This document shows positions 6,257 through 52,400 of a DNA stretch of 64,000 nucleotides, in pieces. Within the stretch, counting starts at the first letter, position 1; each line of letters begins with the position of its first letter. The notes beneath the pieces are model-generated. The model had not been told where the DNA came from. It ran no database searches and was given only the letters and a program-made list of their open reading frames with translations. Position numbers and translations under genes: made by a program. Source of the stretch: Blastobasis lacticolella (lineage: Eukaryota; Arthropoda; Insecta; Lepidoptera; Blastobasidae); contig LR990048.1 of NCBI GenBank assembly GCA_905147135.1, forward strand, positions 13,500,563-13,564,562, written 5' to 3'.

Positions 6257-6733
6257 CAGTATCCGTTTTGGCTTCGTAGCGCACCCCCGCGTCGCTCGTT
6301 GCCAGCTCGCTTCCGTTTTGCTTACGTATTTCGCAAGTTTTCGCGCGCGTTCACTTCGCGTTGCGAGCCCGCGTCCCGCTGAGCGTAACGAATTATAGTT
6401 ACGTTCATTCAGAGACGTAGTTTCTTGTTACCGATTCGTCGGTAACACAAAGCTGCGTTTCTGCCGCGTTGAGTTGGTGGATACTTAACGGTGACAACTA
6501 AGCCAACTAGCGTTGCCCCGGTGCGCTGTTAAGGCCCCTCAGGTCTTAGCGAAACCGGACGTCCCGATCCCATTGCACTTGGGCCTGCCCAAGGGTGACG
6601 GATAGCGGCATATCCATTAGGGATAGCCGCTCCACCGACCCCCTCTCCCCTCTCCCCCCTGCCTCGCGCAGGGAGGACGCCCCGCGTCTCTCGGTCCCTC
6701 GTCGACATCTCTCGTCCCTCTTCTCGCCTCCCA

Positions 6734-8320
6734 ATGGCGACGGTCTCGGTGGAGGATTTCGCCGCTCAGGCGGTGAAATTGCTCCTCCGAGCAAATCTAG
6801 GCCAGGACAACTACGTCGTACGTAGTTACCTGGCGTCAGTGGGGAGTGCCCCTCAGGCCCCCCGCGAGCCCTCTGAGGACATGGAGTTTGAGGACTCCGT
6901 GTCCCAGGTCTCAGCGCCGCCCTCCCGCAAGAGGGCGGCTTCTCTGTCCGGGGACGACTCTTCGTCCTCGACCACCGTGACGGGAACTCTTTCCGTCACC
7001 CCCGTCCCACCCTCTGCGGCCGAGCTCGACGGATTCGAGCTCGTCGCTAAATCTAAGCGGCACCGAAAGCGGGCCGCCCGCTCAGTGTCCGAGGCCTCGT
7101 CCGAGGCCGCCGCGCCCGCCCCGGTCGCGGTCGCGGTTCTCTCTAGCCCCGCGTCCCCCGACTCGAGCGTGACTGCTGCCGCTCGCGAGACCGCGCCGTC
7201 TGGCCCTAAGCCAGTAGCGCGTTTTGCCCCCCCTGCCCCGTCTAAAGCCAAGCCCCCGCCCCCTGTTTTCCTTAGGGAAAAGTCCAAGTGGGAGTTAGTC
7301 TCCCGTCTCTGCGCGGAACAGCGCGTCCGCTATACCCGTGCCTCAAACACGGGTATAGCCGTTAAGATTGACGTCGAGTCGATCGACGACTTCAGGAGCC
7401 TTACTAGGCTCCTAGCCCACAACAAAATAGGTTACCACACCTACGCCCTCCCTGAGGAGCGTAAGGTGCGTGCGGTACTCCGTGGAGTGCCGCACGAGCT
7501 TTCCAATGAGGCCATTCTCATGGACCTCAAGTCCAAAGATTTCCCCGCCGAGGCTGTACACAAGATGTACAGCCGGTCCGGCAAACAATTTCCCATGGCG
7601 CTGGTGGTGCTTTCCAACACCACCGGTGCCAGGACTATATTCCGGGGAGGCTTCACGGTCTGTGGGCTCTCCGGAATCAAAGTCGAGGCCCCGCATAAAC
7701 GCGGTTCCCCAGGGCAGTGCCATCGCTGCCAATTTTATGGCCACGCGTCGGCCAACTGCTCGGCCCCGCCGCGCTGTGTCAAGTGCGGCGAAGGCCACAC
7801 TGCCAAGGAGTGCGCGCGTACGCGCGACTCCACCACCCCTCCCTTCTGTTGCAATTGTGGCCAATCTGGCCACACTGCAAACTACAGGGGTTGCCCGCGC
7901 GCCCCTCGTCCCCGCACTTCCGCGCCAAAGCCCACTAAGGGCAAAGGCGCAAATCCCTCTGCGCCGAAGCCCGCTAAGGGCAAAGGTGCAAGGCCGCCGC
8001 CGCCTTCAGCGACAGTGGCCCACTATCCCCCCCTCAAGGCCAAAGGGCCCCCCCCGAGCGCGGCTCCAGCCGCAGCTTGGGGCCCGCCCAAGGCCCCGGG
8101 GCCGAAGGCTCCCCCCACCACCTCTCCCCCCAAGGCCATCAGCCACCAGCCCCCGCCCTCTTCTTTGGCGGAGGATATGCATTACATATCCTCCATTCTT
8201 GCGTCCGTCAACATTGACGAGATCCCCGTCCTGGCACGCAAACTGCGTAACGCCTCCACCCAGCTCGAGCGTTTAGACGCACTTGTCGAGCATTACTCCC
8301 TCGTCCAGGCCCTAAAGTAA
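6734..8320 (+). CDS. LINE ORF1: Gag-like nucleic-acid-binding protein with three zinc knuckles
   Basis: A 528-residue protein that should bind the element's RNA into ribonucleoprotein particles and chaperone target-primed reverse transcription. The N-terminal third is Ser/Pro/Ala-rich and low in complexity. A middle region (about 185-325) resembles the folded RNA-binding part of insect LINE Gags. Three CCHC-type knuckles lie at residues 329-387: CHRCQFYGHASANC, CVKCGEGHTAKEC and a third starting CCNCGQSGH. A Pro/Lys-rich tract follows, then a C-terminal helix-like segment. The start is the ATG in CCAATGG, the first in a long open frame. The stop overlaps the ATG of ORF2 in TAATG. Strong GC bias at third positions explains the many shadow frames here. 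Confidence 0.92.
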   Translation: MATVSVEDFAAQAVKLLLRANLGQDNYVVRSYLASVGSAPQAPREPSEDMEFEDSVSQVSAPPSRKRAASLSGDDSSSSTTVTGTLSVTPVPPSAAELDGFELVAKSKRHRKRAARSVSEASSEAAAPAPVAVAVLSSPASPDSSVTAAARETAPSGPKPVARFAPPAPSKAKPPPPVFLREKSKWELVSRLCAEQRVRYTRASNTGIAVKIDVESIDDFRSLTRLLAHNKIGYHTYALPEERKVRAVLRGVPHELSNEAILMDLKSKDFPAEAVHKMYSRSGKQFPMALVVLSNTTGARTIFRGGFTVCGLSGIKVEAPHKRGSPGQCHRCQFYGHASANCSAPPRCVKCGEGHTAKECARTRDSTTPPFCCNCGQSGHTANYRGCPRAPRPRTSAPKPTKGKGANPSAPKPAKGKGARPPPPSATVAHYPPLKAKGPPPSAAPAAAWGPPKAPGPKAPPTTSPPKAISHQPPPSSLAEDMHYISSILASVNIDEIPVLARKLRNASTQLERLDALVEHYSLVQALK

Positions 8321-11250
8321 TGCCCCAGGCGCTTCACGCCACACCCCCCACTCCCGCCAGTGTCGGCACCGGTCGCATGAGGCCGGGTGGGGTTTCGCTT
8401 GTTTCTTTTAATGTGCGCAGTCTACGCACAAACATCTCCGAACTTAGGACGTTCGTTAGGAGCAGGGAGCTCGACCTACTTCTCCTTCAGGAGACTTGGC
8501 TCAAGCCTTCGATCCAGAAGGGTATTTCGATCCCCGGCTTCTCCCTTGTCAGGGATGACAGGTCCCCCACCGCGTCATCGCGTGGTGGAGGAACTGCCAT
8601 TTACTACAAGAGATCGCTTCATTGCTCCCCTCTTCCAACTCCAACTCTCTCGAGTATGGAGGCCTCCGTAGTGCAGCTAGGCATGACAGGACATCCGTCC
8701 CTGATCATAGCCTCTGTCTACATCCCCGCCGGCTCCCTGCCACTCAAAAGCGACTTCGAAGCGCTTCTCTCGCTAGGCGACTCTGTTATTATGTTCGGAG
8801 ATTTCAACTCCAAACATACCGACTGGACGTGTTCCTCCACCAACACGAGCGGTGTCCACTTAATGGACATCGTTCGGTCTCTCGACCTAGACGTGTATTG
8901 CCCCCTCTCCCCTACCCACTACCCAGACAGAGTGGATCACCGTCCCGATGTACTGGACTTTGCGATAGTGAAGGGCGTGTCGCTCACCCTCCGGTCGATC
9001 GACACCCTCGACGACTTAGGCTCCGACCACCGTCCAGTCTCCCTAGTACTAGGCTCCCCCACCCCTATCTCTCCCCCACTGCCGCGAACTTTCACGAAGT
9101 GGGAAGGATTCAAAGAGTCCATGGCGGCCGTCATGGACGCGCCCGACTCGCCGCTCGCTTTTTCATCCGACTACTTCGATAGTCCGGATAAAATCGACGC
9201 TGCGGTAGCCTCGTTAACGTCCCACATTCGGTCAGCGTTGAAGGACAACGAAGTGGTGGCCCCTGTCGTTAATCGGCAGGGACTCCCACTCGAAGTTCGA
9301 AACCTGATCAAAGCCAAAAACGCAGCCCTCCGGAGGGCCGCACTCTATCCGACCCCAGAGTACAGACGCACTGCGAACCGACTTCAGCGGGCAGTGCGAG
9401 CACGTCTCGACGAAATGAGGAACTCCCAATGGGGGGACCTCATGCAGACGATTTCCCCGTCCCATCAAGCGTACTACAAAGTGGCGAAAGCCCTTCGTAC
9501 AGACGCCAGAGTCTCCATCCCTCCTCTTGTTCGCCCAGACGGCACAATTGCGTTTGCGGACACCGAGAAAGCCGAATGCTTTGCAGATAGCATTGCTTCA
9601 CAATGCTCCCCTAGCACCATGGAGTGCGACCCCGGTCACGTGCGTGCGGTGGAAGACGAAGTCCGTCAAAAGACCTCGCTCCCTCCCACCACGGACCCTG
9701 TCACAGTGTCCCCCGACGACATCCACTCCTTCATCAAGGGTCTCAAATCTAACAAAGCGCCGGGCGCGGATGGAATTTCCAACCAAGCGCTTAAGTACCT
9801 CCCCGAGCAGGTGCTTACTTTGTTAGCGATCATTTTTAATGCTTGCTTTGACCATTGCCACTTTCCGACCGCGTGGAAAGAAGCCATAGTCATAGGCATT
9901 CCCAAACCGGGAAAGCCGTTAAATGTAGCGTCATCCCACCGCCCGATAAGCCTCCTCAAGGCATTAGGGAAGTTATTCGAGAGAGTAGTGCTCTCTCGAA
10001 TGAAAGAACATCTCTTCAAAGACGATGTTCTTATTCCCCATCAATTCGGCTTTCGTCCCAAACACAATTGCCCCAGACAAGTCCATCGTATAGTAGAATA
10101 CATCCTCAATGGATTCTACCCAAAGAGAGAAAAGACGGTCGCAGTCTTCTACGACGTCGCCAAGGCCTTCGACAAAGTCTGGCACGAAGGCCTTGTTTAC
10201 AAGCTATACAAGCTTGGTCTCTCCGATCGACTCGTCCGACTAGTAGCGTCCTATTTAAAACACCGTACCTTTCGGTTCAGACACGAAGGTACTTTGTCTT
10301 CCCCACGTCAACTGAAGGCCGGCGTCCCGCAAGGCTCTGTACTCTCTCCCCTACTCTATATATCGTACACGAACGATATTCCCGTCCCCGACAACGGGGT
10401 GCAACTGTCCCTTTTCGCCGACGACACGGCAATCTACGCCAAAGGGCGAAGGCCACCCATGGCAAAGCTCCAAAAGGCGGTGAACAAGCTCGAAGCTTGG
10501 TTCAAACTGTGGCGCATCGAAGTGAATCCGGAGAAGAGCTCCGCGGTTTGCTTCGATGTTAAGCGCAGACGGGGTGACAGCGACCCCCCTCCCCTCCGCA
10601 TGCAAGGGAAACTAGTTCCCTGGCAGCGCGCTGTAAAATATCTAGGCGTCACGCTTGACAAAAGGCTCACTTTCCGGCCCCATGTCGAAAGAGTGTGCCG
10701 CACCGCCCGTTTCTACCTGGGTCGCCTCAACAGTATGTTGGGTCGATTCAGTAAAATGTCCCTCAGGAACAAGCGAACCCTCTACAAGGTGTGCATTCGA
10801 CCGGTGTTGACATACGCCTCCCCCGTCTTCGCTCACGCGAGCTCCCACGTCACTAAGAAACTGCAAATTGTGCAGAACATCTTCTGCCGTAGGGCAACGG
10901 CGGCTCCATGGTACGTCCGCAATGCGGACCTACACCGTGACATGGACCTGCCTACCCTGCAGCAGTTTCTTAGAACGCTCTCCGAGACCTTTTTCAAGGC
11001 CGCGGAGGAGCACCCCAACCCGCTCGTGCGAGAGGCAGCAGCCTACGCTCCCCGCCCGGTCTCCGGCCACGTGGTACGGAGACCGAGACACGTCCTCGCG
11101 GATCCCCCCGACGAACTGTCGAGCGCCCTGAACCTCCTCCTGGAGGCTCAGGACGACTCGACAGAGCCCCCCCATGCCGTTTCAGCGGCCCCCGTAGGCC
11201 CCCAATCCCAATCCACAGCAGCGGGACCCCCTTCTGGGGTTTCGCTATAA
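8320..11250 (+). CDS. LINE ORF2: AP-type endonuclease plus reverse transcriptase
   Basis: A 976-residue protein that nicks the target DNA and copies element RNA into it. The exonuclease/endonuclease/phosphatase domain covers about residues 25-245: SFNVRSL, QETWL at 57-61, GDFNSKHTDW at 160-169 and SDHRPV near 235. The RT spans roughly 470-760: KAPGADGISN, HRPISLL, QFGFRPKHN, YDVAKAFDKVW, GVPQGSVLSPLL and the catalytic FADD at 699-702. A thumb and C-terminal region follow with no RNase H, matching Jockey-clade proteins in order and length. All catalytic motifs look intact. Translation probably depends on termination-reinitiation, because its ATG shares one base with the TAA of ORF1. Confidence 0.95.
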   Translation: MPQALHATPPTPASVGTGRMRPGGVSLVSFNVRSLRTNISELRTFVRSRELDLLLLQETWLKPSIQKGISIPGFSLVRDDRSPTASSRGGGTAIYYKRSLHCSPLPTPTLSSMEASVVQLGMTGHPSLIIASVYIPAGSLPLKSDFEALLSLGDSVIMFGDFNSKHTDWTCSSTNTSGVHLMDIVRSLDLDVYCPLSPTHYPDRVDHRPDVLDFAIVKGVSLTLRSIDTLDDLGSDHRPVSLVLGSPTPISPPLPRTFTKWEGFKESMAAVMDAPDSPLAFSSDYFDSPDKIDAAVASLTSHIRSALKDNEVVAPVVNRQGLPLEVRNLIKAKNAALRRAALYPTPEYRRTANRLQRAVRARLDEMRNSQWGDLMQTISPSHQAYYKVAKALRTDARVSIPPLVRPDGTIAFADTEKAECFADSIASQCSPSTMECDPGHVRAVEDEVRQKTSLPPTTDPVTVSPDDIHSFIKGLKSNKAPGADGISNQALKYLPEQVLTLLAIIFNACFDHCHFPTAWKEAIVIGIPKPGKPLNVASSHRPISLLKALGKLFERVVLSRMKEHLFKDDVLIPHQFGFRPKHNCPRQVHRIVEYILNGFYPKREKTVAVFYDVAKAFDKVWHEGLVYKLYKLGLSDRLVRLVASYLKHRTFRFRHEGTLSSPRQLKAGVPQGSVLSPLLYISYTNDIPVPDNGVQLSLFADDTAIYAKGRRPPMAKLQKAVNKLEAWFKLWRIEVNPEKSSAVCFDVKRRRGDSDPPPLRMQGKLVPWQRAVKYLGVTLDKRLTFRPHVERVCRTARFYLGRLNSMLGRFSKMSLRNKRTLYKVCIRPVLTYASPVFAHASSHVTKKLQIVQNIFCRRATAAPWYVRNADLHRDMDLPTLQQFLRTLSETFFKAAEEHPNPLVREAAAYAPRPVSGHVVRRPRHVLADPPDELSSALNLLLEAQDDSTEPPHAVSAAPVGPQSQSTAAGPPSGVSL

Positions 11251-19438: not shown

Positions 19439-22400
19439 GGTGGCCCGCACGCCTGTTTGTCTGCCGTATTACATAAAATAAAAACCTAACTCACTACTCT
19501 GTGGGATAAGCTATGAAGTTTTAAATCCGCTATTGTACGTAACTATGCATAAAGTAAATAAAGAATACTGACTTGAGCAGCGTGGCGAGCGTGGTGTGCC
19601 TGACGATGCAGCACTGCAGCAGCGGCGCGAGGATGCTGAGCTCGTCGTGGAACGCCTTCCCGAACGCGCGGCCCTGGTCCAGGTGCAGCGTGAACGTCTC
19701 GTTGCCGAACATCCTGGGGAAGGCGGGTATTGAGCCAGGGTACAGGAAAGGCATGAGCCATTTAATCTCAGGCCTCACAGTGACTGCAAGCGGTTCTTCA
19801 ATTTTTTCACCTGCAATCTAATATTTTTTTTATACTACCAAGCTGGCAACCAGTGGCAAACAAGCTTACGGCCTGCCTGATGTATGAATTGTAGATGTTA
19901 TGGGCGACAGTTACCACTTACCATCAGGTGGGCTGTCTGCTTATTTGTCCCTATGTAGCTTAATAAAAGGAGAGGTTAGAGCAATTGGTGCAATGTGGGT
20001 GCTTTAGCTTGACACCTAGCGAGCATACGTTAAGCAGCTACTCATATGATGGACAGTGGTTCCGACTAATACCAATACTTTTGCTTCGCGGTTTGTAAAG
20101 ATGGCAAAACCAGAGGACTAAGTTAGTTAATGTATGTAGACAGCCTAATGTCTTTACCAGTTACGCAATCATATTACTGAGACTGGCGATCTTGACCAAA
20201 AACCCCAAATAATCACAATAATCAGTACGTGTAAATTTGACAAATAATAATTAGCTCACTATGTCTCTCTCAGCTTCCTTCTTTCTTCATACCTTCTGCT
20301 AGCTCCTCTTCTTCCTTAGCAAAACTTATGGGTTTAAAGACACCCATGAAACCTTGTTAGTACTCACTTGAAAGTCTCGTAGTGATGTCGGTCCATGTTC
20401 CCTGTCAGGAAGTCGAAGATGCACATATCGATGAGGTCGAGCAACCGCCGCCCCGAGTCGTAGGGCGGCGTCGTCCGCACCTACAGACAGACATATTCGC
20501 ACATAAAGTACTGTATGTTGGGTGTATGTGTCTTTGTCTACTTATGCGCTTAATACACATGCCTAAATTCAGTAACTAAATTCAGAAACAAAAAACATGA
20601 GAGCAAAACAAAATGGAATGTATTGCTCATTGAATAAGGTCCATTTTTGTATCTCGGATTTTTGAAAAGCGGTGATGAGTGATACAAAAATGGACCTTAT
20701 TCTATGAGCAATACATTTTGCTCTCACGCTTTTTGTTTCTGAATTTAGGCATGTGTAATAAGCGCATTATCTACTGCGTATGTTTGTTGGAGGTTGACCA
20801 AAGTCTTCCGCTGAGAACCCTGAGATTGGTGTTCAACCACTCGGGTCTCAGATTGAATTTCGGGAGCCAATTGGCATCCCGTAACGATATTTTTTTTACT
20901 TTACTGCCTACCTACATCATCATCCATCTGTCCTTATCCCACTGGGTTGGATTTCTACCATTTAACCATATCACTCGTCAGTCCATCCAACTTTGACTTC
21001 TGCTGATTTAAGCACCCACATTCAGAAACCTCACAGTGCGCGCAAACGCACAAGGTTAAAGCTGAGTTTGAGTTTCGAACGGCACTAAGCGTCCGTAAAA
21101 ATGAACGGCACGGTGTATTTATATTATAACTACGTACAAGGGACCAAGTTTGAATTCAGGCGCGGAAAAAGGAGCCCTTTAACCTAATGGTGTATTTATA
21201 ATAGTAAAGCTCAAGACAAAAAATGTTTCCGAAAACGGAGAATAGTCTCATATCTGTCATATTTCCCCAAAGAGGGCTATCGTTTTTGTGCTCAGCAGTT
21301 GGCACAACTGTCGGGGTGTTGTCACTGTAAAAATAACGTGGTCCTATTGGCTGAATTATAACCAATATTTAGACAACAGAGCTTACTCGCTAGTGGTGCC
21401 ATCTAGTGGAATTTTGATAGTGCGGAAGCTCCCATTGATTTTATTTATTTATTTATTTGTGTCAATAGAAAACAGATAACTTACCGTATCACAATAATCT
21501 GAGCTCAACTCCCATTGAGCTTTTCTGCGCTTGTGGTAGGATCTTCTCCAAGGATGGCGCCATACCTGCACATGATAACTGCGTGTTATTTACAAACTCT
21601 TATTATATATTTTTAATATACTTTCATGGGGTGCCAATTAGCGCCAGAGACTGTTTAACCAGTCTCAGGGTGGCCAGCGGACGACATTGGTCAACATTAT
21701 ACATGGTTTTATAAAAACATACTATCACAAATTACCTTCGAAATTAATTCATTATAATACTGGCCATTCTCCATTATTCCACTTATTTATATTGCAATCA
21801 TTTCCAGGCGATTTTATCAGTGTGAATCAAACATTTAATTTCTCCAAGAATAATTTGTAAAACTGTATTTTTTCGGTTTTCGTGAAATATTTATTTACGT
21901 ATTTGTTCCTTATACTAACTTACCCATAGCCCTATACTATCCGACACATCCCTACTCTATCCCACTCTACCCTACTCTACACTACGCTACCTCTACCCTA
22001 CCCTACCCTTCCCCTATCTACTAAAGTTTTCTTGCATACAAACCTTGCGCTGACAATTACATATACAACAAAAAATATTTAGGCAAATATTTACGGCAAA
22101 CTATATAACTATATAACATACATCGGCAAATTGATTATTATTCAAATAGAAGAGTGTGTATATGATCAACCACTCCAAGATGAAGGCTAACAAGAGCAAA
22201 AAAGGATGTTATTAAGCTAGTGATACCTTTCTTTCGGCCACATCCGGCGACGGCAGGAACGCGGCGAAGCTACCTTCCAGCATATCCGGGTTGCCGCAAA
22301 TCGCGTGCCCGGTATCGCAGTAGTAGGAACATTTCCCATGGAAGCAGAAGTTGTTCGCCGGAGATACGAAGAAGGTCTTGAGGATATCGCCCTCGGTGAC

Positions 22401-25400
22401 GTCGTAGATCTCGGTAGTCATGTTCAGCACTCGGCCCACGACCGGCATGGCGCGTCGGAAGCCAAGGATCCTGTGAGCAGTGATTCAGGTTATGAGGCCC
22501 ATTTTAGGAAGGGAATAATGATTGCTTTGATTATTTTAAATGTGAACACGTATTATAAAATAGAGAGGAACTGAAATTCAGTTGTCTAATGATCTTATGT
22601 ATACCTACATCATTATGCAAGTAGGTATGTATTAAGTTCACCTACCTATTAGTTATGCTTAGCAGTTTGATTGGAGGAGGCGCAAGTCCATCAGTGGACT
22701 TGTTAAATGACGATGATGATTTGATAAAGAGTAAAATGATTACTGTTACGAATACCATGCGGCATGTGCCAACTACGAGTAAATACTGTATTATTAAACT
22801 ACCTATATTGGTGTTCTAAACGGTAAAATATAGGCTACGGCTTATGCGCTTATGTAATTGACGCCTGGCTAAATTCAGAAGTAAAATGGGTGAGAGAAAT
22901 TCAAAGTGAAATTTATTGCTCATAGAATAAGGTCCATTTCTGTATCACAACTTTTGAAAAGCTGAGCATCTAACACGATATAAGTGACACAAAAAATCGA
23001 CGTAGGAGTAATACATACCACTTTGATTTGCTCTCACGCCGACTGAATTTAGTCAAATGTAATAAGCGCATTAGGTTGGAAAAATTCGTTTAGTTATTCA
23101 CGCGTGTAGGGGAAAAATTTACGTGTTGGAGGGGCGCCTGATAGTAGGCGGGTCGTACAGATGTTCGTTACAGTAGCGTTTAAAACCGGAAAAGTGCGAG
23201 TATTGTCGGCAAACCAACAAAAATGCATATTTTTTTTTTAAATTGGAGTTGGCAATACGGCTCTTTGTGTAAAAATTCAGTTTACCAACCGCAAATAAGA
23301 AAAATACTTGCTCCTAAGAAATCCATCTGGTCTATTCATCCAAAATCAATACAATCTGGTCAGGTTCCCTTGGCAGCGGGTTACCGAGGTCAGATGGTAG
23401 TCGTTCCACTGTAATTACTAGATTGCCAAATCCTGGATCATGGTCAAGGCGGACCCCGGGCCCTCGTTCTCGAGAGCACAACCGGGACATTAACGCCAAG
23501 ATGATATATATATTTTTTATACTTGCTCCTAGGAAAATCCGTCTTGAGTATCTGAGAGACAGACGTAGAACAGAGTGCTCCTATAGGGATTAACTTTTTA
23601 CTTTGAGGTTTGGAACCATAAAATAGAAAGAAGTCTAATAAAAAAGAATGTAATGTTTTAAACGATCGCGTTTATTATCACACATTTTAATGGTATGTTC
23701 CGGGTTTCCTACCGCGTACATTTGTTAAAGAATAGCCCGATATTTCGACGCAGTTGCATGCATCATGGTCACGGGACGAGGTATCTTTGCTTATTTGCGG
23801 TTGGTAAACTGAATTTTTCACATAAGGAGCCGTTTTGTCAACTGCAATATTTTTTATAAAATGTGCATTTTTGTTAGTTCGCCGACAATACCATGTAATA
23901 ATGTGACCATGTGCGGTGTGATACAAAGTCATACCCAGCATTATTCTGTAGTTTCGCGCATTCAAACAAAGTTTACACGTGCACTTAGATTTAGGTGCAT
24001 TAACAATTCACTGGGAATTTTCTCTGAACACTAAGTTGGACGCACGGACCGCAAATAAGCATGCGAAACGAATCGATACTCCGTGTAGTGGGATGGCGTA
24101 ATCTAAATGCACATTGTCCAAATACTTCACCTGTCCAGAGGTAGGCTATCTCTGACTGCCGTTCAAGGCAGAAATGCTAGCGTGATAGTCGAAACTAGAA
24201 ACGATTTGCCGAGGTATCCTTGTTTGAGCATACCTACCTTTTCCAAAGCGTTTCCTCCTTTTCTTTCCATTCCGTAGTCTAACGTGTTCCTATGTTTGTC
24301 TATCTGAACGCGACAATGTGAGAAACTGTTAGAAGTTGCTACACAGATTTGCGAATTTTGCCAATAGTTACACATTATACGAAGTGTTGCACGAGGTTTG
24401 TAGGCATAGAACAATAATTAATAAAACGCGCAAAATTAACAATATTGAGATTTTAACTATTAAATTTACTATTTACAACACATAAACAGGTACCTATAAA
24501 TAAGCGTCGTGTGACTAGTTGCACATTGAATGAGATATAATTCTCTTCCGCTAACGAACTTTAGGTATTTATAATAAGAGAAGAGATATTCAATTTGTTT
24601 TTGTACGGTGCGAGTTCCTCGTTTTTTCTTCCTTACTTAGTATGTCACGCCTGAAGTTTGCGCAATAGGGATCATTAATTTAATGAATGAACAATCGAAT
24701 AATAAACATAAATAATCGAAAACCAGTGTAAATATAGTCTTGACTTGAGGCTGGGAAGGCATTGACGAGTAGTATAACATTGATGTAGCGTTATATTCTG
24801 TTAAGTTAGAATAGGTATTATGCCTAGATAGGATAGGCGGAGATCCGCCAGACGATTCTTTCCTACTTTAACGTTACGCTGAATTTGCTAAATCACTAAT
24901 AATAATAAATAAATAAATAATTTGTGGACAAATTCACACAGCGCCATCTAGCCGCAAACTAAGCAAAGCTTGTACTATGGGTGCTAGAACTGCACCATTT
25001 TTATAAATCTTTGTACTAATATAACCTGAGTAAGAGCATAGTCTCGCCGAATGAAGGCACATCATTACGCCGGTGTCTTGTAAACTAGCTAAGTAAAAAT
25101 ATTATGATTTGATACGTTTAAAAAAGCGGCGTTATAATTATTAAACTTCAAATTCTTTTGAACAAGTTCAAATGGATTTATTTATGCTGCATCATGCTCT
25201 TTTCAAAGGCTGGGATTGAGATCGAAGCATTCAGTCTAAGTCCCCTTTGCCTTACAGCTGCATCTTACAAAGATCTATGCATAACAGTTGTAGGTAGAAG
25301 TAGGTATTGTACGCGAACCAAAGATTTTGACTTCGCAAACAATATTGTAGTACTGTACTTTTGTTCAATAGTACAAATACAGACAACCGCATGCCCGAGA

Positions 25401-40400: not shown

Positions 40401-43400
40401 GGGTTGAAAAGGTTTTTACAGGGTCGGCAACGCGTGGTTGATCGTCTATAGGCTGGGGTGACTGCTTACCATCAGGCAAGCCGTAAGCTTATTTCCCACA
40501 TTAGAGGAAAAAGTTTTTTTTTGGAAATTTACATTGATACAATAATTTTAATGTCATTAAATGCAATCCAATGCATCTCTGTTTATACGATGCTAATATT
40601 GAACTTGCTTAGTGGATTGTCCCAGCTATTGGCCCCGTGTAAATGGTTCTTTAGTTCACTTCCAAGCATCGCGATCGCTACGCGCAGCTCCAGCGTCGCA
40701 GCAACGACACTAACACCGCTGGGTACCGATTCTGGTGTGTAATGCAGTTGTTATTATGTTGCAATGTAACTGTGATGTTACTATAACTACGTCGAGGTAT
40801 CGAGTCAGTCCCAGCATCATCCCAGTTAAATTGCAGTTAAATCGTTGACAGAATTGAAGGCAGTTTGACAACTAAGAAAGATGCAACTTAGTAATTAATT
40901 AATTTATTTATTTATTGGAGTACCAACAGCCATATAAAACCATAATGCAACTAAAGTAGCAGAAAACGAATTGTGGAAAAGTTCGAACTCATAAAAGTTG
41001 CAACTCAACATCCGTCATTTGAATAACAATCACACGATTGACATGCGATGCAATTGTAATGTTACTGCAACTAAGACGATTTCCGTACCAGAATCGAAGC
41101 CCTGGAGCCACCAACTAATTCCAAATTTGATTAATTCAAACATTCAAATTTAAACACTGTAAAAGCTCAACATCTTTTTTGTAGCTTTTTTACTCTACTC
41201 TCGCTACTCTAATAGACTCCTAGTACCTAGCTTCCCGTCAACAAAAGGTCAAAATCAATCAAAATCAAAATTTCTTTATTTAGTAGGAAATTGAAATATA
41301 TATCTCTTTCAATCGTCATATGGGATTGTAATAGGCAAGTGGGACGGTTGGCCGCCCCAGAGCCAAAGCACATCCACCCTACGCCGATAACAGCGACACG
41401 TGCGGCCGTAGCCGCCAGCGCGTTAGGTATAACCCGCGTCACAAATGAAGAGACTAGTCAAATGATAGTGGAGGGGATTTCGTACAGGTAATCTTATGGA
41501 GCGCAAGTCAAACCACGTGACCCGCCAAGTCTCTTCTTATTTGACACTAGCTATAATGCGCGAGAGTCGATCATCGTTGCCGGAGTTGCGCGTCACTATC
41601 GCGATCCTCAGAAGTGGACCTTTGGTATTTCATTTAGCAACTACATATCACATAAAAAGAGTACGTAGATGTGATCATTATTTACAAAATCAATCAATGA
41701 CTGCTTTTCGCGGTGAACGTATAAAAATACGTTTATAATAAAAATTAAGCATTTGTAATAAATGCAGAGAGGAGGAGAGGAAATTTTGTTGTAGAGTAAA
41801 TTTTCAAGCTTAAATAGTCCAGGAGCAGCCAACTTGAACAGTGTTAATTAACCGCATTTGTGAGCCGAAATGAAGTGAGATGTCCAAATTATTTCGACGC
41901 AATTCTGGTTGGCTCGTATCTATTCTATCTACCTTCTTTTCAAGGTTTCGTAGGAAAAAGCATCGAATGCATATTCTATTTATTTCAAATTACATCAAGT
42001 TACTCGTTATTAGGTAATTATTTAGATCTTTGATAAATTGTTACTATGTAGGATAAATGCTGGAGCTGCAAGGACGTCACTCGCTTGGCACTGAATTCGC
42101 TAAAAACAGCTATGGTCGGTCTTTCAAAAATTAAGATATCCGTAGCTGAACTAAGGTCTGAGACATGGGTTATACAGAATAGCATCTGAAGTGGCAATAA
42201 CCTGGCCATACTAGATCGCAGAACCGACGATTAAATGAATAAACATAATTCATTCTGGTCAGGTTCCCCTGTTAAACAGGGCCACGGAGGTTAGATGGCA
42301 GTCGCTTCATTGTAATTCAAAATTACCTGAATTGTAATTACCTGAATTGTAATTACCTGATCTGTCAAAATCGTGGATTATGGTCAAGGTGAATCCCTGG
42401 CCCTCGTACGAGAGTACAACCGGTGTTATGATTACATTGGAGAACCGATAGCCGAGGAAGCCAGTGGCGACCATCGACCTACAAGATGGGGTGACGACCT
42501 TGATGATCGATGGATTCAAAGTCCATCGCAGTAGAATTCGTGGTAAGTCCAGCAAAGGACGGCTGGCGATATTGCCAATTTCACAATTGATTGCTATAAT
42601 ACAGCTACTGTATAGTAGCACCAAGCGATAACTTAATCGTTTATGGATGCTAATGGATTATTAATTATATTGCCCGTTTTAGAGGCTAGATCCATGAACG
42701 GAGCGCTCAATAATTTCGACAATGCAGCCAGACAGGCTATTGAATCAAAATAATTTAACCATTGACATGTTGTTGCTCACTTTAGTTTTCGGTAACGAAA
42801 TTATGTAGTATAATAGGATCCTGATTAGTCCGTATTGACTGACAGTGGTAAAAATTATAAAGTGTGGATATGGCAATATCAATTGGAAAATCTGTCATTG
42901 TCAGTCGTTGTTAGTCTTTCTTGTAAATATTCAGTTATTTGGTCACTAATATTATCTTGAACTTGTACTGTTAGTTTGTCTAAATTATTAATCATGCAGA
43001 AAATTATCTCCCGCACTTCCTTTTAATTGTTTTGCCCATAATTTAATAATATTTTTATAACTCACGAAAATAAACAATCCTATAGAAATCAAATTGTTTG
43101 TTATGACTTTTATGAATGACGTTCTATGACGTTTTAAAAACTTGGCATAAGTTGCCATACAGAGATTGTTTTGTTAATTTTTTTTTTAATATGCGTTGCG
43201 GACTTAATCTATTAATTTTAGTGGTCTGTGGAATTATTTTGTGCTATCTGAGTACAATTGGGCGGTTTGTGTCTTGTATATCGTAAAAGTCACCTTTTCA
43301 TAATTACGATAATCAGGGTAATCTAAGATGATAATAGTAGCTGCATAAATTGTAAATTTGAAGACTTATAATATTAGTTGAAAAAAATGCTTTTATTCTC

Positions 43401-46400
43401 TTGGCTTTATACGTATTTTTATTATGGCAGGCTTACTGCACCAATTGAGCGAATGCTCTGAGAACATTAATTCGATTGGTGTAATGTAAAAAAGTTAGAG
43501 CATTTCTATATTCATTGTTCATTGCATTTCTGAGATGAAACTGAGAGGGACTGCTGTAGATATATCTATGCTACAACAGGAAAGTTTTCGATCTCGAAAG
43601 TTAGTGACATATAAATATATATAAATATATGTGTAGCGAATTTAATTTTTGAATAAATTATTTACTATTTAGATATAAGTGTAAAACAATTTGCGAATAA
43701 AGATGATAGTGTATAGCTTTTTACGATTAGAATTAAAATTGTGAACAGATGAGGCCCAATTATATTTAATATAAGGGAAAATATTCACAGAACAACAGCA
43801 GAGTAGGTAAAGAAAATAAAAACTCGTTAAACCCGTATGAAGAGGGAATTTTTTGGGAAATACAATATATGAGCACAAAATTATCCTTATCGACCGTAAC
43901 ATTTCAGATATAAATAATTTCTTCGTGTATCGATATTGTAACTTTATACCTAACTATAAGATAAAATAATTATAACTATAAAATAACGAATACTGGGAAT
44001 TTCAAAGCGATAAGCCCATAACCAATTGTTGATTGACGAATGTCTTCTTGATTAAATAAACAATTCTGGAATACCCAGTAATGAGGTCATGATGGTTAAT
44101 TTCATTTTCAATAAGTAATAAAGATATCGGCACTTGTTCACTTCAAATATCGTTGGTACCTACAAATTTGGATCGACAGTGTGCCTATTTTACTATCGGT
44201 CAACATTGACCTGTGAACTGGGATTTTCCCAGAATATCACAATAATATTGCCAACGTTTAAAGAATAGCTATTACAGTATGATATAATATGGACCTATTT
44301 TACCTAGAGCTATGGTCACTACAGGAAAAATAAAATTAATTATTCATACAATACCGTTTTCAAACCACGTCCCGAGCCACAACGACCAATTGTGAGTGAG
44401 TAATTTGGTCCTAGTAGCCCAAGATAAACTATAATGAACTATAAACTCTCCATTAGCTAAATACTTATCAGCTTTTAGGTTTATTATCGTTTTTCTACGT
44501 CAATTGCTATCAATTCATTTTAATATTTTGAGTTGCAAGGATGATATTAAAAAGTGTGTAGAAGGAGGGAGTAATAAAAAATTATTAATATGTTAATTAA
44601 ATAACTTTAATTTAAGGTAAAACACTTATAATAATTATAACAATCTCAATACTGAAAAACTAGTCTTAAAAATAAATTACAATATGAATACTATGCTTTT
44701 TTAGAAGCTAATTTAACATATTCTAAAATTGTAAGATAACAAAATACATAATAAGTGGACAAAGATAAGCAGTTGTTTCTTTGCTTGCGGAGATCTCTTA
44801 CTACTGTTGCTAGATCGATCGTCGAACTCTCATTGTATCTCGATATGCTGATGTCTAGAGCGCAGAAAGCTCCTGTGCGATTTAATCCAGCAGAGCAGTG
44901 GACCACCATAGGAGGAAAGTTGGAACTCTTGTTATCAAACTCCACATGTGCTTGAGCCTTTCTGACTTTGAGAACAAAGTTAAGAAAGTTTGATCGGCTT
45001 TGAGGCACGCTTTTATGAGGCCAATCGGTGTAAGTGAAGTGTGTGAGGTCTAATGAGTCTCCACTGTCGTCTGTCATCCGTAGCTTGGTCACTATATGGT
45101 CACAAAAGGTCTTTACTTTCTTTGTTTCAATGATGAAGTCACCGAACCACACTGTCCTTCCTTTCTTCGGGTCCCAGTACTGGTAACAGACTTCCTGTTC
45201 TTCTTCGTGTGTTTTTGTCAACATAACGATAACTCTGGATTGATATCCAAACACCATTTTCCAAAAATCTTCGGCTGTTGACTGAAGTGGGCCCTGACAG
45301 CACAAATACTTGCCTCGAGTTTTGTACCCGTTGACGTGATTGGCGTTAATATAGTCGCTTTCTCCGTTTTCTGCTGGTAAGATCACTCTGTTATGATCAA
45401 AACAAGGTAAAAACCAGTATCTATTTTTCAAAATATTTTCTTCCTTCATCGATATGCTGCAACTGTACTCAACTTTTTCGTCTAATATTCTCCGTTGTTC
45501 TTGTTCGAGGATCTTGATTATTCTTTCTTCATTGTAACTAACGCCAGATTCTTTTTTCGTAGAAATCCCACCCATTTTTAAAAATTTATTTTCACAGGAT
45601 GAGAGTCCTTGTTTCGACTGAAGATCAGTATCGACTGAAAATATTATACTGATCGTGACACATTTATACTAATGAATTTCAGCATTAATATTAACTTTTT
45701 CCTCCCTGAATGAACAATTTAACCAATATGACGCACGAGGTTTCAGTTTATTGAGTTTGATATTTATTTCAACATCATTAAAAATTAATTTTATCTATAA
45801 AAATTCCCATGTGGTTAATTAACAAGCCTATCAGTGAGTTCAAATGTTATCATGAACTTCTTTTCCTTTAAAAACCTTACAAATTACAATCAAAACCCTT
45901 TATTTGGAGTTTAGGAAACTAAAGCGATGATATGGAGCATCATGTTTCAGTATATGAAATTAACTATTTCTTATATTATTTAACATTACTAATTTTCAAG
46001 TAATACTTCCTCTACAGGAAGTGAATCACCATAATGTAGTTAACTTTAGGCAGTCAAAGGACCAATATAAATAGGATTTCTCTATGAATTGTATCATAAC
46101 TTTATTTTTGATTGTACGAACAGTACCTTTGATTTTTTTTCTGATTTTTGAAAGAAAAATTTAAAAAGAGGAAGGGTGTAATTGTATCGAAAGCTCTGCA
46201 AAAGATAAGACAGGTGAACAAAGACTCTATCAGCCAAGCAGAGAATTAAGTTTTTTGTTACAACGTATGACATAAATTCGTTATAAACAATATGAAGTAA
46301 TGTAGATTGGTAACGTCCCATATGGAGCACGCGGTAATTCGGACGGCGATAACATTTAACCTATGGGAAAACCCGCGATAGAAAGTATTTTTGTTTATGA

Positions 46401-49400
46401 ATCCCTCTATATCAGCCGACTATATAAGAGTCTTCCAGTAGGAAGCAGTATTATTGCGATTCGGGACTTCAAGAAGTGACATCTTACTCTCTCTAAAAAT
46501 GGATTCTGATAAATTAAACGACACATTCGGTCCAGATCCTACAAGCAGAAACTATACGATATTCCATTTGATTGCTAAATCTGACTGTCACGATATTTTG
46601 GATAGAATATATAACCATTCTGGAGATAAAGACTTTCAGCACATACTAAAACTCAAGGATGACGACGGAAACACGTGTCTCCATACTGTCGTAAGGTGCC
46701 GAAGTGGAAGTGATGCTGACGATATGATATCGTTGATGGTAGCTATGGGAGCAGACTTGAATGCCCAGGATAATGCAGGAGACACTGTTTTGCATAAAGC
46801 AGTGAAAAAGGGGGACCACAAGCTGGTAGAAGGATTAGTAGAGATGCACGCCGATAAAGACATTAATAATGAAGATGGATTGACGGCTTATCAAATTGCT
46901 GAGCAAAACAATGATGAAGAAATAATGAAGATGCTTATAATGAAGATTGAAGAAAATAATAGTTCTGGATGTTTAGTAAGCCCGTTTAACTTAAGTGAAA
47001 TTCTAGGTTTTCTATCAAATTCAACAGATTAACTACTTTTATTTTTGCTTGTGAATTGTGCAAGCTTTGATTTTATAAGCCATAGTTTTTAAGTGTTTTA
47101 TTAAATGGGTGAATTGTAAGGGTGAATGATAATTGTAATTAGAATGTATAAGTTTTAAATGATTATAATCTTTTACCCTTATAAATTTATCTGTATAAAT
47201 TTTGCGTGGGCATAAACGGATGTCCTTTGGTTAACCAGTACCTAAAGTTCTTATCAACGAACACTGAGGGAAACCAACCCGTAACTATGATTCAGAATGG
47301 GTACTTTTGATAGGAATTGTCACTGCAATTTTCTCAAAATAAAACGATGCGCATGTCTCTCGTTTTAGGTCTTTGAAAAAATAAAAACAGGGTTACATAT
47401 TAAATCCTTAATTTCATTAGGTGTTTAAAAAAATTTTTTACAAATTCCTTACATAACTTTGGTATCTTTAGTTTATTTATAAAATACAATCACACTAGAA
47501 ATTACATAAATCTTATACTAACTTATCTTATGACTGAATTTATTCTTAAAAAATATTAATAATAATACCATCAGTCGTGATAAGTATAAGGATGCAGAGA
47601 AATTTCAGTTTTTTTATCTAAAATCCAATATCTTTTTCTAAATTATGTTTTACTTAACTTTTTAAGTACTATTCGATCTTACAATGAAATGTTCTTAGAA
47701 CTACGTTTACATTTTACGGGCAAAGACACATACTTAATGAATCTTCAAATTAAACAAATTTAGTTAATAAAAAAATTCATGTTTTGTTTATTTTAAGTTT
47801 ACAATAAATATTTTTTTCTGTTTAGGTTATTTTATTATTTTTTATTTAACTGTCAAACGTGATAGTTCCTCCAAATCACTTAGAGCTAACACACATATGA
47901 GTAATTAAATTTTTCAAGGATTCTTTGTTGGTAAAAAATACAAATACGCTCAATATTTCAGCACTAAATATCAAAAATTTATTTAATACACAACCAGAAG
48001 ATCACTATTAAAAAAATTAAAATTTTGAGTTAAAATACTATAGATAAAGATCACAAATCAATAGTCATAATTTCCGTGAGCCCTTAGTTCAAACATGATA
48101 TCAATTTTAAAAAACTATAGCAGGAAAAAGACTTCACTAACTTATAAATAGTTCCATTTACAAGATCTTATTAATGAGCAACCGACTGGAGGCAAAAGAA
48201 ATAAGATTTGACCTGAGCCTGATCCCAGCATTGAAAAACCCGAATGTTAAATAATAGGATGATAAAAATATTACTAAGCGGCAAATATCTTGAGGAAAAA
48301 AGGTTCCAAAAAGAATCACTTTGTAGGGTTTTGAACGTGCTGAATGACACACAATTTTGCAGTTAAAAAAAAATTTCTTTAAATTTACAAATTTAATTGG
48401 TTTGAAATTTTAACTTTCAACATCGAAATTATCCCTGTACAAACTCACTGTTAGTGAAAAGGTATTCCTGACAATGTAATAATTACAGTGCCATTCGTCT
48501 ATGCAGATATGTTCCATGTGTCACATTTTACGATAAGATTCTAGTTATTAAATTTTTTTTTAAATTGGTCTATACAAGTTTATTTTTAAAATATTGAATG
48601 AAGTCGAGTCGAAGTCGAGATTGAACACTTTTAAGAACATTATATAATTATAACGTTTAATATTGAAATCTTGGACTGGACTATCGATATATCGAAGCAT
48701 TGAAGTGTTTGTACAAAAACGCCACTATGTCAGTTCGTCTCCAGGACAAGACCACAGAACCTATTCAGCTGCAGCGAGGTGTTAGACAAGGTGATGTCAT
48801 ATCTCCGAAGTTGTTTACCGCTGCACTGGAGGATATCTTTAGGCTTCTGGACTGGGACGGACTTGGCATCAATATTAACGGCGAGTACCTCACGCACCTC
48901 AGATTTGCTGACGATATCGTAGTCATGGCTGAAACCCTGGAAGACTTGGGCAAAATGCTCGATGACCTCTGTAGTGCCTCTCAACAAGTAGGTCTTAAAA
49001 TGAACATGGACAAGACGAAAATTATGTCGAATGTCCATGTTGTGCCTACTCCAGTGACAGTTGGAGGCACTCCACTTGAAGTTGTTGACGACTATACATA
49101 CCTAGGACAAATAGTCCGGCTAGGTAGGTCCAATTTCGAGAAAGAGGTCAATCGACGAATCCAACTCGGTTGGGCAGCGTTCGGGAAGCTACGCCACATA
49201 TTTTCGTCCCAATTACCGCAGTGTCTCAAGACGAAGGTCTTTGACCAATGTGTGTTGCCAGTGATGACTTACGGAGCTGAAACGTGGCCACTCACTATGG
49301 GCCTTATAAGAAAGCTAACTGTTACCCAAAGGGCAATGGAAAGAGCTATGCTCGGAGTTTCTTTGCGCGATCGAGTCAGAAATGAGGAGATCCGCAAGCG

Positions 49401-52400
49401 AACCAAGGTCACCGACATAGCTCTAAGGATTGCCAGACTGAAGTGGCAGTGGGCAGGGCACATAGCTCGAAGAACAGATGGCCGATGGGGCAGTAAAGTT
49501 CTCGAGTGGCGACCACGTATCGGTAGACGCAGCGTGGGTAGGCCTCCTACAAGGTGGACCGACGACCTGGTAAGGATCGCAGGTACCAGCTGGATGCGGA
49601 AAGCACAGGACCGGTCTTTGTGGAGATCTCTGGGGGAGGCCTATGCCCAGCAGTGGGCGTCTTCTGGCTGATATGATGAATAGTGAAATGGTTTAAACTA
49701 AGAGTAATTTTGTTTTTTTAAGCCTAACGTACCTAATTTTAACTTGTTAATTGTTTATTTTACAACACTAGAAAGTTACTAGAATAACATTCAAATTGGC
49801 TAGATAGACAAAAAGTTAATGTTAATGCTTTAAAATGTTATATTCGTTACCCATCTCAACTGGATTTTGATTTGAACTCGAATGAACTCTGACGTCTCCT
49901 AGTGTTTGGGCGTAAATTAAAAAGACATTACGGTGCAGTACGTAAACGTATTAGATACCTATACATAATGTTACAATATAACTACTACACGTGTACCAGT
50001 CTATCTACAGTTTGAGATGTTTTTATAACCTCCACAGATGAAAGGATTCAGATTTGCTACAGAGATTATTTGAATCTGGGAGCCGTATCCATAGGAAGCT
50101 TTCAATGCTTTCAAGCTTTCAACGAAGATTTCATGAAGTCCGAAACTAAATAAACAAAAACTACAATTGACATTTTAAATGTACGATTTTTACAAAATAA
50201 TTTAAACGTAAATAAACCCTAATGGAAAATAACTTTAATGCATTAGAGTGCAAACGTCAATGCGATTGTCAATTATTAAGTTAATTGCAATTTATGTAAT
50301 ACTTAATTGGTCGTTTACCTTAATTGACATAAATATTGTCGATCGCAATTGATCGTTAGCGCTATCCCTAACACTTCGTAGTACACTATGCAGGACAAGA
50401 GTCTAATTTTGTCAATAACAAAAACCAGTCTGAGGCGCTTGCTAACAAAAAAAAGACCACTTTATAGCTAAATATGTAACACGGAAAAGAATCGCTTAAC
50501 CTAAAAATTTTGTTCACACACTCACAATCACCACACATACCCTTTTATGTCATACGGTAGGCAAAACCTGACGGAAAGTGGTCACCGCTGCCGATAGACA
50601 TTAGCAACATCAGCGGTATCGCCAATGCGTTGCCCACCTCCATAACACGTTGTTCTGGTAGCAAAAAGGCAAATGCCCCTCCACTGCTAAAGCCGCAGAT
50701 CCCCAATTCCCCACCCCGTGGAATACTGGAAACGTTACTCACCGACGTTACGTTAAAGGCACTTTTTAAAGATTTAGTTTTAAATCTTTGTCAGCGTGAA
50801 CGATATGCATTTATTTATTAGTTCATTCCACAGCAGTTAAATATAGCATATAAAATTATGGTATATCTACTTATATGTTGTATATTATGCACATACTTTT
50901 AACACTCTAGTGTCAATAGTTATCTACTAAGTTAAACTAAAACAAACAGACATAGCGAATCTATAAGGGTGCCTAGTTTTACTACGGAAAGCAGACAAAG
51001 AACAGACCATGTACAGACATCGCCAGTGGCCAGCGTATTTAATTTACCTATTAGCGGTATGACGTAGGTATTCAATAAAGTATTTTTGACCGATATGTCA
51101 AGCAGCGATAGAAACATAAAATTTTGCACAGAGGTATAGGTAATTTTTATTTACAAAATACCGCAAATGACTTAAGTAAATACTAACAAATTAAATTGAA
51201 TGACACTTGACAATTTACAATTTATATATTTATACACATTTGACAATTTATTTTAGAATATTGATGTATATGTAATGTCTTAAATTTTTTTTTATATTCG
51301 CCTTACCGATTTGAGTAATAAAAATAGGTAGATATCTATTATTGTTAAAGTGATCTCCTATTATTTTAGTATTCCAATCTCAAGACTCTCTTACGCAATA
51401 TCTATTTTGATAGCTATTTGAACAGGTTTATTTTTGGGCAGTACCTACCATCACAGAACGATAATCATTTTGCATTTTAGCTACTATGACTACTAAATAC
51501 TAGTTTTTGCAAGCAATTTGCAATTTGCCTACAATCTAGGTAATCATTTTCGCTTCTTTCGGAGTCACAAGTTGTAGTATGTAAACGACGACGCGCATGT
51601 AGGTAAATATTTTGACAGTTAGTCACGCACCGGTCTACGTAAGAAAGTACATACAGTAAGTATGTATAATTGAAACAAGATGACGTGTTATGACTATCAT
51701 CCATCAGTTACCGGGAACATATCTTGATTTACAATGTTTACCGGTTACGGAAAATCTCAAAGACACGTAGGTATCTATAGGTCATCGGCCTAGATCATCA
51801 TCATCATCGTGGCGTTAATGTTCCGGTTGTGCTCACAAGCGCGAAGGCCCGGGGTCCGACTTGACCATGATCCAGGATTTGACTATCAGAAAATTACAGT
51901 GGAGCGACTGCCATCTGATCTCCGTGACCCTGCTACCAGGGGAACCTGACCAGTTTGGATCATGGTTACAAATTCAGTTGCCCGAATTTGCAGGTTTTAT
52001 CACGATGTCATCGGCCTAGATATCACTCCATTATTGCGGCAACTATAACATCATCTTCCTCGCAGTCAATTAAGGCTTCTGCCAGGGTCGCTTGCCTACT
52101 CTTTTCCTCGACTGCCCCCGGTCTTGGGTATCCACGCGTCGTAAGCCGTTGGCTCTCGGATCCGACTCAGCGATGTCAACCCATCGCTTCTTGGGCCTCC
52201 CGCGGAACCTCTTTCTGATACAGGCAGCTTATGTATATATTCCCCTACTTTCAAGCCATCACATTGTCATGACCACACATTAACAGCTCGCAATAGTTTA
52301 CAAAACTTGAGCCTTCTCCACATACGTGGAAAGTTTTGCCACAATCTTCATGCTTGGCAGGCGCTCCTGCTCATTTCATGGTCCACGGAGGAACTAGTTA

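Follow-up and report, generated by a model that had tools for sequence, protein, structure and literature searches.

A 64,000-nucleotide stretch of the Blastobasis lacticolella genome (hereafter the window; contig LR990048.1, positions 13,500,563 to 13,564,562 of the forward strand, assembly GCA_905147135.1) contains a bracovirus-type element of ~4.86 kb, which carries a protein tyrosine phosphatase (PTP) gene and an ankyrin-repeat (ank) gene and is present, almost unchanged, at many other sites of the same moth genome. We interpret these copies, with a probability of roughly 0.6, as products of recurrent germline integration of circularised wasp bracovirus segments. A preliminary description of the window had proposed a single capture at one locus. 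That proposal is not supported: among 30 copies fetched, including the window's own, 20 were near-complete and differed by only 0-1.5% over 3.5 kb. A single domesticated insertion was likewise abandoned as an explanation after the search of the moth's own genome showed many copies.

An intronless gene pair within sharply bounded ends

Two genes lie side by side in the window, each as one open reading frame (ORF) without introns: the PTP gene on the minus strand (294 aa) and the ank gene on the plus strand (177 aa). The preliminary description had correctly recognised them as intact, and their homologues in Cydia pomonella (83% identity for the PTP and 78% for the ankyrin protein) place both frames beyond chance. 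As listed, the ank frame starts with TTG at 46454; its earliest ATG is at 46499, which gives 177 aa to 47032. The interval first given for the pair, 44691-47032, covers the genes, but the inserted unit extends from 43576 to 48438. The features of this unit are as follows.

43573..43575, no strand: target-site duplication ACA, left; same three bases at right
43576..48438, no strand: integrated bracovirus-type element, family 1, ~4.86 kb, carrying PTP and ank genes, with sharp bounds
43576..43603, plus: left inverted end (ACAGG...), matching the right end at 22 of 28 positions, counted by eye
43711..43747, plus: WIM-like block, AGCT at 43715, 139 nt from left end; 37/37 nt identical in family 2
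44691..45575, minus: bracovirus-type PTP gene, 294 aa, intronless (Pfam Y_phosphatase, E 4e-70)
45648..45668, minus: possible PTP core promoter, TATAAA at 45668 and TCAGT at 45652 (motif match only)
46421..46427, plus: possible ank TATA box (motif match only)
46499..47032, plus: ankyrin-repeat gene, 177 aa, intronless (Ank_2, E 8e-15)
48411..48438, minus: right inverted end (reverse complement starts ACAGG...), an imperfect inverted repeat of the left end
48439..48441, no strand: target-site duplication ACA, right; same three bases at left

Three other loci (L031 on contig C15, L032 on C3 and L033 on C21) were 99.9-100% similar to the window across 43576-48438 and had unrelated flanks beyond both ends. 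At the left boundary, 22 of 29 other loci, taken with 1.5-kb flanks, aligned from 43571-43576 on, and the remaining 7 did not show this end in one piece. When 19 family-1 copies were inspected, both ends were found in 15, and all 15 had a perfect 3-bp target-site duplication (TSD) whose sequence varied from site to site. Of the four copies that lacked a right end where one was predicted, that on C17 was truncated. The element thus combines inverted ends with a TSD of fixed length, as DNA transposons do. A copy of a second family on contig 22 (15370915-15383757; 12,843 bp) had ends of like kind and TTT on both flanks. In five other family-2 copies the left end was found at three of the five predicted places and the right end at none, so that family-2 copies either differ in length or had their lengths wrongly predicted. 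The regularity of the 3-bp TSD points to a staggered cut of DDE type rather than to the tyrosine recombinases that excise circles in wasps, and this signature makes the integration chemistry testable.

Copies and families in the moth genome

The search of the moth's own genome covered 577 Mb in 45 contigs, with 133 of 907 candidates scored, and the copy totals are lower bounds. Among the matches listed, family 1 had 34 long PTP copies with at least 92% identity over at least 267 residues, on 19 contigs; 18 of them were 100% identical (rounded), two of which contained a stop. Family 2 had 38 long PTP copies among the matches listed, at 75-78% identity and on 20 contigs. Rows with shorter PTP matches are not counted in either figure. 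Taken together, 72 long copies of the two families were listed on 27 contigs. The left 300 bp of the element gave 40 listed matches, each spanning the whole query at 96-100% identity, and the ankyrin protein had 151 matches in the genome. The family-2 copy on contig 22 holds two ank genes and a PTP with 78% identity, along with two more full-length PTP ORFs and several PTP fragments; family 1 aligns colinearly with this copy in patches, large parts being absent. The FAM20C intron is one target among many.

Further PTP/ank families occur at ~51% and 36-38% identity, with several copies each (C2, C16, C20, C25, C17, C8 and others), and the L047/L069 region, which belongs to one such family, has a WIM-like block of its own. 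Contig 8 has frequent, clustered ank matches and 7 of the 72 long PTP rows, as many as C21. At C3:18310650-18311474, a PTP match with one stop within it lies in a 623-aa open frame and is possibly fused with other sequence.

The PTP is of bracovirus type

In the database search, the PTP matched two C. pomonella proteins first (the second at 76%), then a stick-insect protein (62%), and further on unnamed proteins (55-64%) and proteins of Glyptapanteles, Cotesia and Microplitis (49-61%). A tree of 25 rows, 10 of them outgroup, was built with 10 of the other listed homologues and without P0012. The window protein and the two Cydia proteins formed a clade (100/100) within the bracovirus group (100/100), and Microplitis fell outside the other bracovirus rows (87/90). 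The PTP therefore sits among bracovirus PTPs and apart from cellular PTPs, which bears out the preliminary assignment to a bracovirus-type rather than an ordinary insect PTP. It shares with bracovirus PTPs, which are described as having no introns (PMC3573978), a single uninterrupted ORF. The top structural match in BFVD, obtained with a model of mean predicted local distance difference test (pLDDT) 72.6, was the Microplitis mediator bracovirus PTP at 49% identity. Among the best 50 matches listed, the named proteins of Glypta fumiferanae ichnovirus (GfV) and Apophua simplicipes ichnovirus (AsIV) were at 14-32%, and other named bracovirus or Toxoneuron proteins at 18-36%. Scans of IMG/VR for relatives of the PTP and ankyrin proteins found none. 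Wasps with banchine ichnoviruses attack tortricids, and an origin of the PTP from such a virus was considered; it was dismissed, chiefly because of the tree placement and the bracovirus match at 49%.

The protein keeps the PTP loop [10 protein letters not shown] and carries WPH in the position of the WPD of active enzymes. Read by eye, the WPD aspartate was absent from all 16 proteins of the PTP alignment. Loss of this aspartate in PTPs has been linked to substrate trapping, and bracovirus PTPs with the cysteine motif are described as possibly still active, two being proven phosphatases (PMC3573978). Because the aspartate is lost, the window PTP possibly acts as a trap.

Two observations concern its relatives. 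In the stick insect Bacillus rossius, a 53.8-Mb contig carries a PTP that clusters (83/86) with one unnamed protein and with bracovirus PTPs of Glyptapanteles, and that is possibly a bracovirus gene in a non-lepidopteran. The database model of a C. pomonella PTP begins 34 residues upstream of the window frame. These residues align with the TATA/initiator region of the window (45576-45668), with identity at 22 of 31 residues, and what the database takes as the start of the protein may thus be translated promoter sequence.

Apart from the Cydia homologue, the ankyrin protein matched only one metagenome sequence, weakly, and, in a second search with a lax cut-off, one butterfly protein (E 0.57). 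It was 28-49% identical to the ank genes of families 2 and 3. Its probable viral origin is argued mainly from its linkage to the PTP within the element and from the related ank genes beside PTPs in other families. Bracovirus Ank proteins have been reported to bind NF-kB (PMC3359993).

A block resembling the wasp integration motif

Bracovirus circles are defined as having one wasp integration motif (WIM) each, with AGCT, followed by 31 conserved bases in Microplitis demolitor bracovirus (PMC4169385). The element has one such block, in which AGCT is followed by conserved bases. It lies 139 nt from the left end in family 1 and 174 nt in family 2, and is identical in the two while much of the neighbouring sequence is divergent. 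In a third family it matched at 31 of 37 nt, compared with 24 of 37 for the best match elsewhere in the window. The block was judged as found in the element itself rather than against a published WIM sequence, and AGCT also occurs elsewhere in the element. In Cotesia vestalis bracovirus (CvBV), the distance between the WIM and the host integration motif (HIM) is given as 128-472 nt in 16 of 19 circles (PMC8460044). On sequence grounds, the WIM-like block may be the scar left by a circularised bracovirus segment.

Constraint between families and decay within the moth

Between families 1 and 2, the ratio of nonsynonymous to synonymous divergence (dN/dS) was 0.20 for the PTP and 0.23 for ank, and between two PTPs within family 2 it was 0.34. 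Among family-1 copies, the corresponding ratio for polymorphism (pN/pS), counted as distinct codon changes relative to the window, was 0.79, with three stops. This sample comprised 28 of the 30 fetched copies, some of them partial; the window's own (L009) was excluded, as was L016, a segmental duplicate with the same left flank as L013. These results indicate that the genes diverged under constraint and that the moth copies decay almost freely. The wasp virus is the simplest seat of that constraint, although a functional source copy under selection in the moth is also compatible with the data. Youth is the probable reason why the window copy is still intact. The preliminary suggestion that intact genes hint at selection in the moth is accordingly set aside, as stop codons and changes of a near-neutral kind build up in the copies.

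Repeated capture or movement within the moth genome

The mechanism that we favour would run as follows. A parasitoid wasp would supply a circularised bracovirus segment with the gene pair as its cargo; the circle would be opened at HIM-like inverted ends, and a staggered cut would insert the segment into moth germline DNA with duplication of 3 bp. Several segment types would have been inserted repeatedly over time from a wasp virus population that selection kept shaping. The predicted role of the PTP in the host of the wasp is to bind phosphotyrosine proteins, possibly trapping them, and that of the ankyrin protein is to inhibit NF-kB; the copies inside the moth decay near-neutrally.

Variation among the copies supports a recombining source. 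The test for incompatible pairs of single nucleotide polymorphisms (SNPs) used 19 near-complete copies of 29 aligned, and then the 16 young ones among them, which had a mean difference of 0.19%; L016 was again left out. In the young copies 5 of 28 SNP pairs were incompatible, compared with a mean of 0.149 in a simulated clonal coalescent (P 0.0125), and in all 19 copies 52 of 253 were. This excess suggests that the source probably recombined, which fits a wasp population.

Several results weigh against repeated capture from a wasp bracovirus. Gene conversion between copies could also have produced the incompatible SNPs. Two copies at different sites and with different TSDs (L017 and L018) share one nonsense change and also the only two other positions, in the 3.5 kb compared, at which they depart from the window. 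Such sharing is natural for copying within a genome; a null allele of the wasp virus captured twice would also give it. The element ends that could be located are exact, whereas somatic bracovirus junctions are reported to spread over 2-12 bp (PMC8549517), and duplications as regular as those seen would suit any enzyme of DDE type. Those ends resemble the published HIM words weakly: the 8-mer matched at 7, 7, 7 and 6 of 8 positions and the 5-mer at 3 of 5 at all four ends. A segment integrated through its HIM would end at fixed inverted J1 and J2 motifs (8+5 nt) and lose ~40-70 bp lying between them; inverted ends at fixed positions are present here. No match at 12 or more of 13 positions was found in a HIM scan with a spacer of up to 12. 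With a spacer of up to 8, the best score was 10 at the left end, compared with 9-12 in shuffles, and 11 at the right end, a score that has no shuffle control. No named wasp or bracovirus PTP in the database search exceeded 61% amino acid identity. Sequence searches with the ankyrin protein recovered no bracovirus or other viral relative, and its two best, weak, fold matches in BFVD were from ichnoviruses: an Ichnoviriform fugitivi vankyrin (E 1.7e-3) and an AsIV ORF (E 2.5e-3), the top two of 586 matches, none of which reached E 0.001 or better, with a poor model (pLDDT 51.6).

The strongest competing explanation is that bracovirus segments turned into a transposon, one or a few captures having been re-mobilised in the moth germline by a transposase or integrase that recognises the inverted ends. 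We regard this as a serious but less likely alternative. In its favour are the inverted ends with a fixed 3-bp TSD, the identity of L031 to the window copy over the whole element, the nonsense mutation common to L017 and L018, the spread of copy ages from 0 to ~5% difference, and the short family as a colinear, internally deleted relative of the 12.8-kb family. However, apart from the PTP and ank genes, the family-1 element has no stop-to-stop frame longer than 94 aa. No transposase domain was present in the eight family-2 ORFs scanned among those available, six of which had phosphatase or ankyrin domains only and two nothing. The cargo has a dN/dS near 0.2 between families, and three families conserve the WIM, which is of use to the wasp only. 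Nor was a swarm of short derivatives seen: the full-length left-end matches listed (40) compare with 34 long PTP copies plus fragments. In a bolder reading, to which we give clearly less than even odds, the segments would behave as quasi-transposons in which a DDE-type enzyme uses the inverted circle ends and leaves 3-bp TSDs, and the ~100 insertions would be either a dated archive of a wasp's virulence genes or self-spreading elements.

Maintenance of the PTP and ank genes by selection in the moth, as a domesticated pair, is improbable. Its support comes from C. pomonella: homologues exist there, the differences between the window and Cydia avoid bracovirus-invariant sites (P 0.0006), and neutral decay simulated to the observed divergence stayed stop-free in 4% (PTP) and 17% (ank) of runs, fewer when indels were assumed. 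These tests fit constraint in the virus equally well, since such constraint could predate capture, and they do not establish domestication. In addition, the moth copies carry near-neutral changes and stops; one C. pomonella PTP and the ank homologue lie on contigs of 23.4 Mb and 0.5 Mb, perhaps in different assemblies; and family 2 is at about the same distance (77%) from either Cydia PTP.

An assembly chimera, or DNA from a parasitised larva, is very improbable. Identical copies could in principle be fresh integrations, but the long copies listed are spread over contigs whose lengths, where shown, are 12.6-35.4 Mb, they have TSDs, older ones carry stops, and somatic insertions, being different in each cell, would not be expected to assemble. 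The earlier view that this is germline-inserted bracovirus-type segment DNA is upheld by the many copies, TSDs and sharp bounds, and an assembly accident is not plausible. Ordinary insect PTP and ankyrin genes are scarcely credible, as the genes, generic though their Pfam domains are, have no introns, the tree places the PTP inside the bracovirus PTPs, and the copies are dispersed with TSDs.

The host locus

The gene pair lies upstream of an exon of a FAM20C-type kinase gene, and the preliminary description had placed it in intron 1 of that gene. The kinase exon is secure from Pfam and PDB matches. The intron number relies on two exons assigned by eye (~37.4-37.7 and ~60.1-60.3 kb), neither of which had a Pfam match; the 37-kb exon also had no PDB match. 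Features outside the element are listed below.

22215..22484, minus: FAM20C-type kinase exon of the host gene (Pfam FAM20C, E 1.5e-19; PDB FAM20-family chains, E to 6e-32)
42251..42423 (approx.), no strand: host repeat beside the insertion, with further copies within the window
48670..49671, plus: host reverse-transcriptase fragment outside the element (RVT_1)

The G+C fraction was 0.318 over 42424-48620, compared with 0.388 for the rest of the window minus 6-12 kb. A GC-rich non-LTR (long terminal repeat) retrotransposon occupies 6599-11250, with ORFs of 572 aa (PRE_C2HC) and 998 aa (endonuclease and reverse transcriptase).

Implications and comparison with known systems

What the genome preserves may be a record of numerous insertions, and not a single useful pair of borrowed genes. 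If repeated capture is true, the virus of a parasitoid would have left a fossil record in one moth genome, including its age and its variation within populations, and the passage of wasp DNA into the moth germline would be frequent and not accidental. If movement within the moth is true, virus segments can become transposons.

Recurrent polydnavirus germline integrations have reportedly been described in 124 lepidopteran species (Heisserer et al. 2023), very probably the same phenomenon as that seen here. Cotesia congregata bracovirus circles with PTP and ankyrin genes are said to integrate into Manduca hemocytes (Chevignon et al. 2018); the gene pairing is the same, but that integration is somatic.

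Integration of circles in host cells and the presence of bracovirus DNA in moth genomes are already established (PMC4574769, PMC8549517, PMC8460044). HIM-mediated integration is known in parasitised caterpillars, and 31 of 33 PTP genes and all 5 ank genes of CvBV are assigned to HIM circles (PMC8460044, PMC8549517). Those circles are rich in PTP and ank genes, are opened at inverted-repeat ends and usually have a WIM nearby; the moth elements likewise carry PTP and ank genes between inverted ends, with a WIM-like block near one of them. Unlike the somatic insertions in caterpillars, the moth copies are heritable and number dozens for two segment types, they show a 3-bp TSD wherever both ends were found, and they match the published 8+5 motif only loosely (PMC8460044, PMC8549517). 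The elements also resemble bracovirus genes reported from lepidopteran genomes in being wasp-virus DNA in a moth germline (PMC4574769, PMC5704228). The cases described there are domesticated or decaying genes, such as BEN, in contrast to the high-copy PTP and ank genes of B. lacticolella, which show no sign of domestication; neither PTP nor ankyrin occurred as a term when the main text of PMC4574769 was searched. Among the titles and abstract beginnings searched, a literature from which most subscription papers fall outside, no report was found of such copy numbers, of several segment families per genome or of uniform 3-bp TSDs.

Non-autonomous DNA transposons with terminal inverted repeats likewise have inverted ends, a fixed TSD and scattered, near-identical copies. 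The elements described here differ from them in that no matching transposase was found in the eight family-2 ORFs scanned, and in carrying bracovirus cargo together with a WIM-like block. The finding is of a known kind, on an unusual scale and with unusual regularity.

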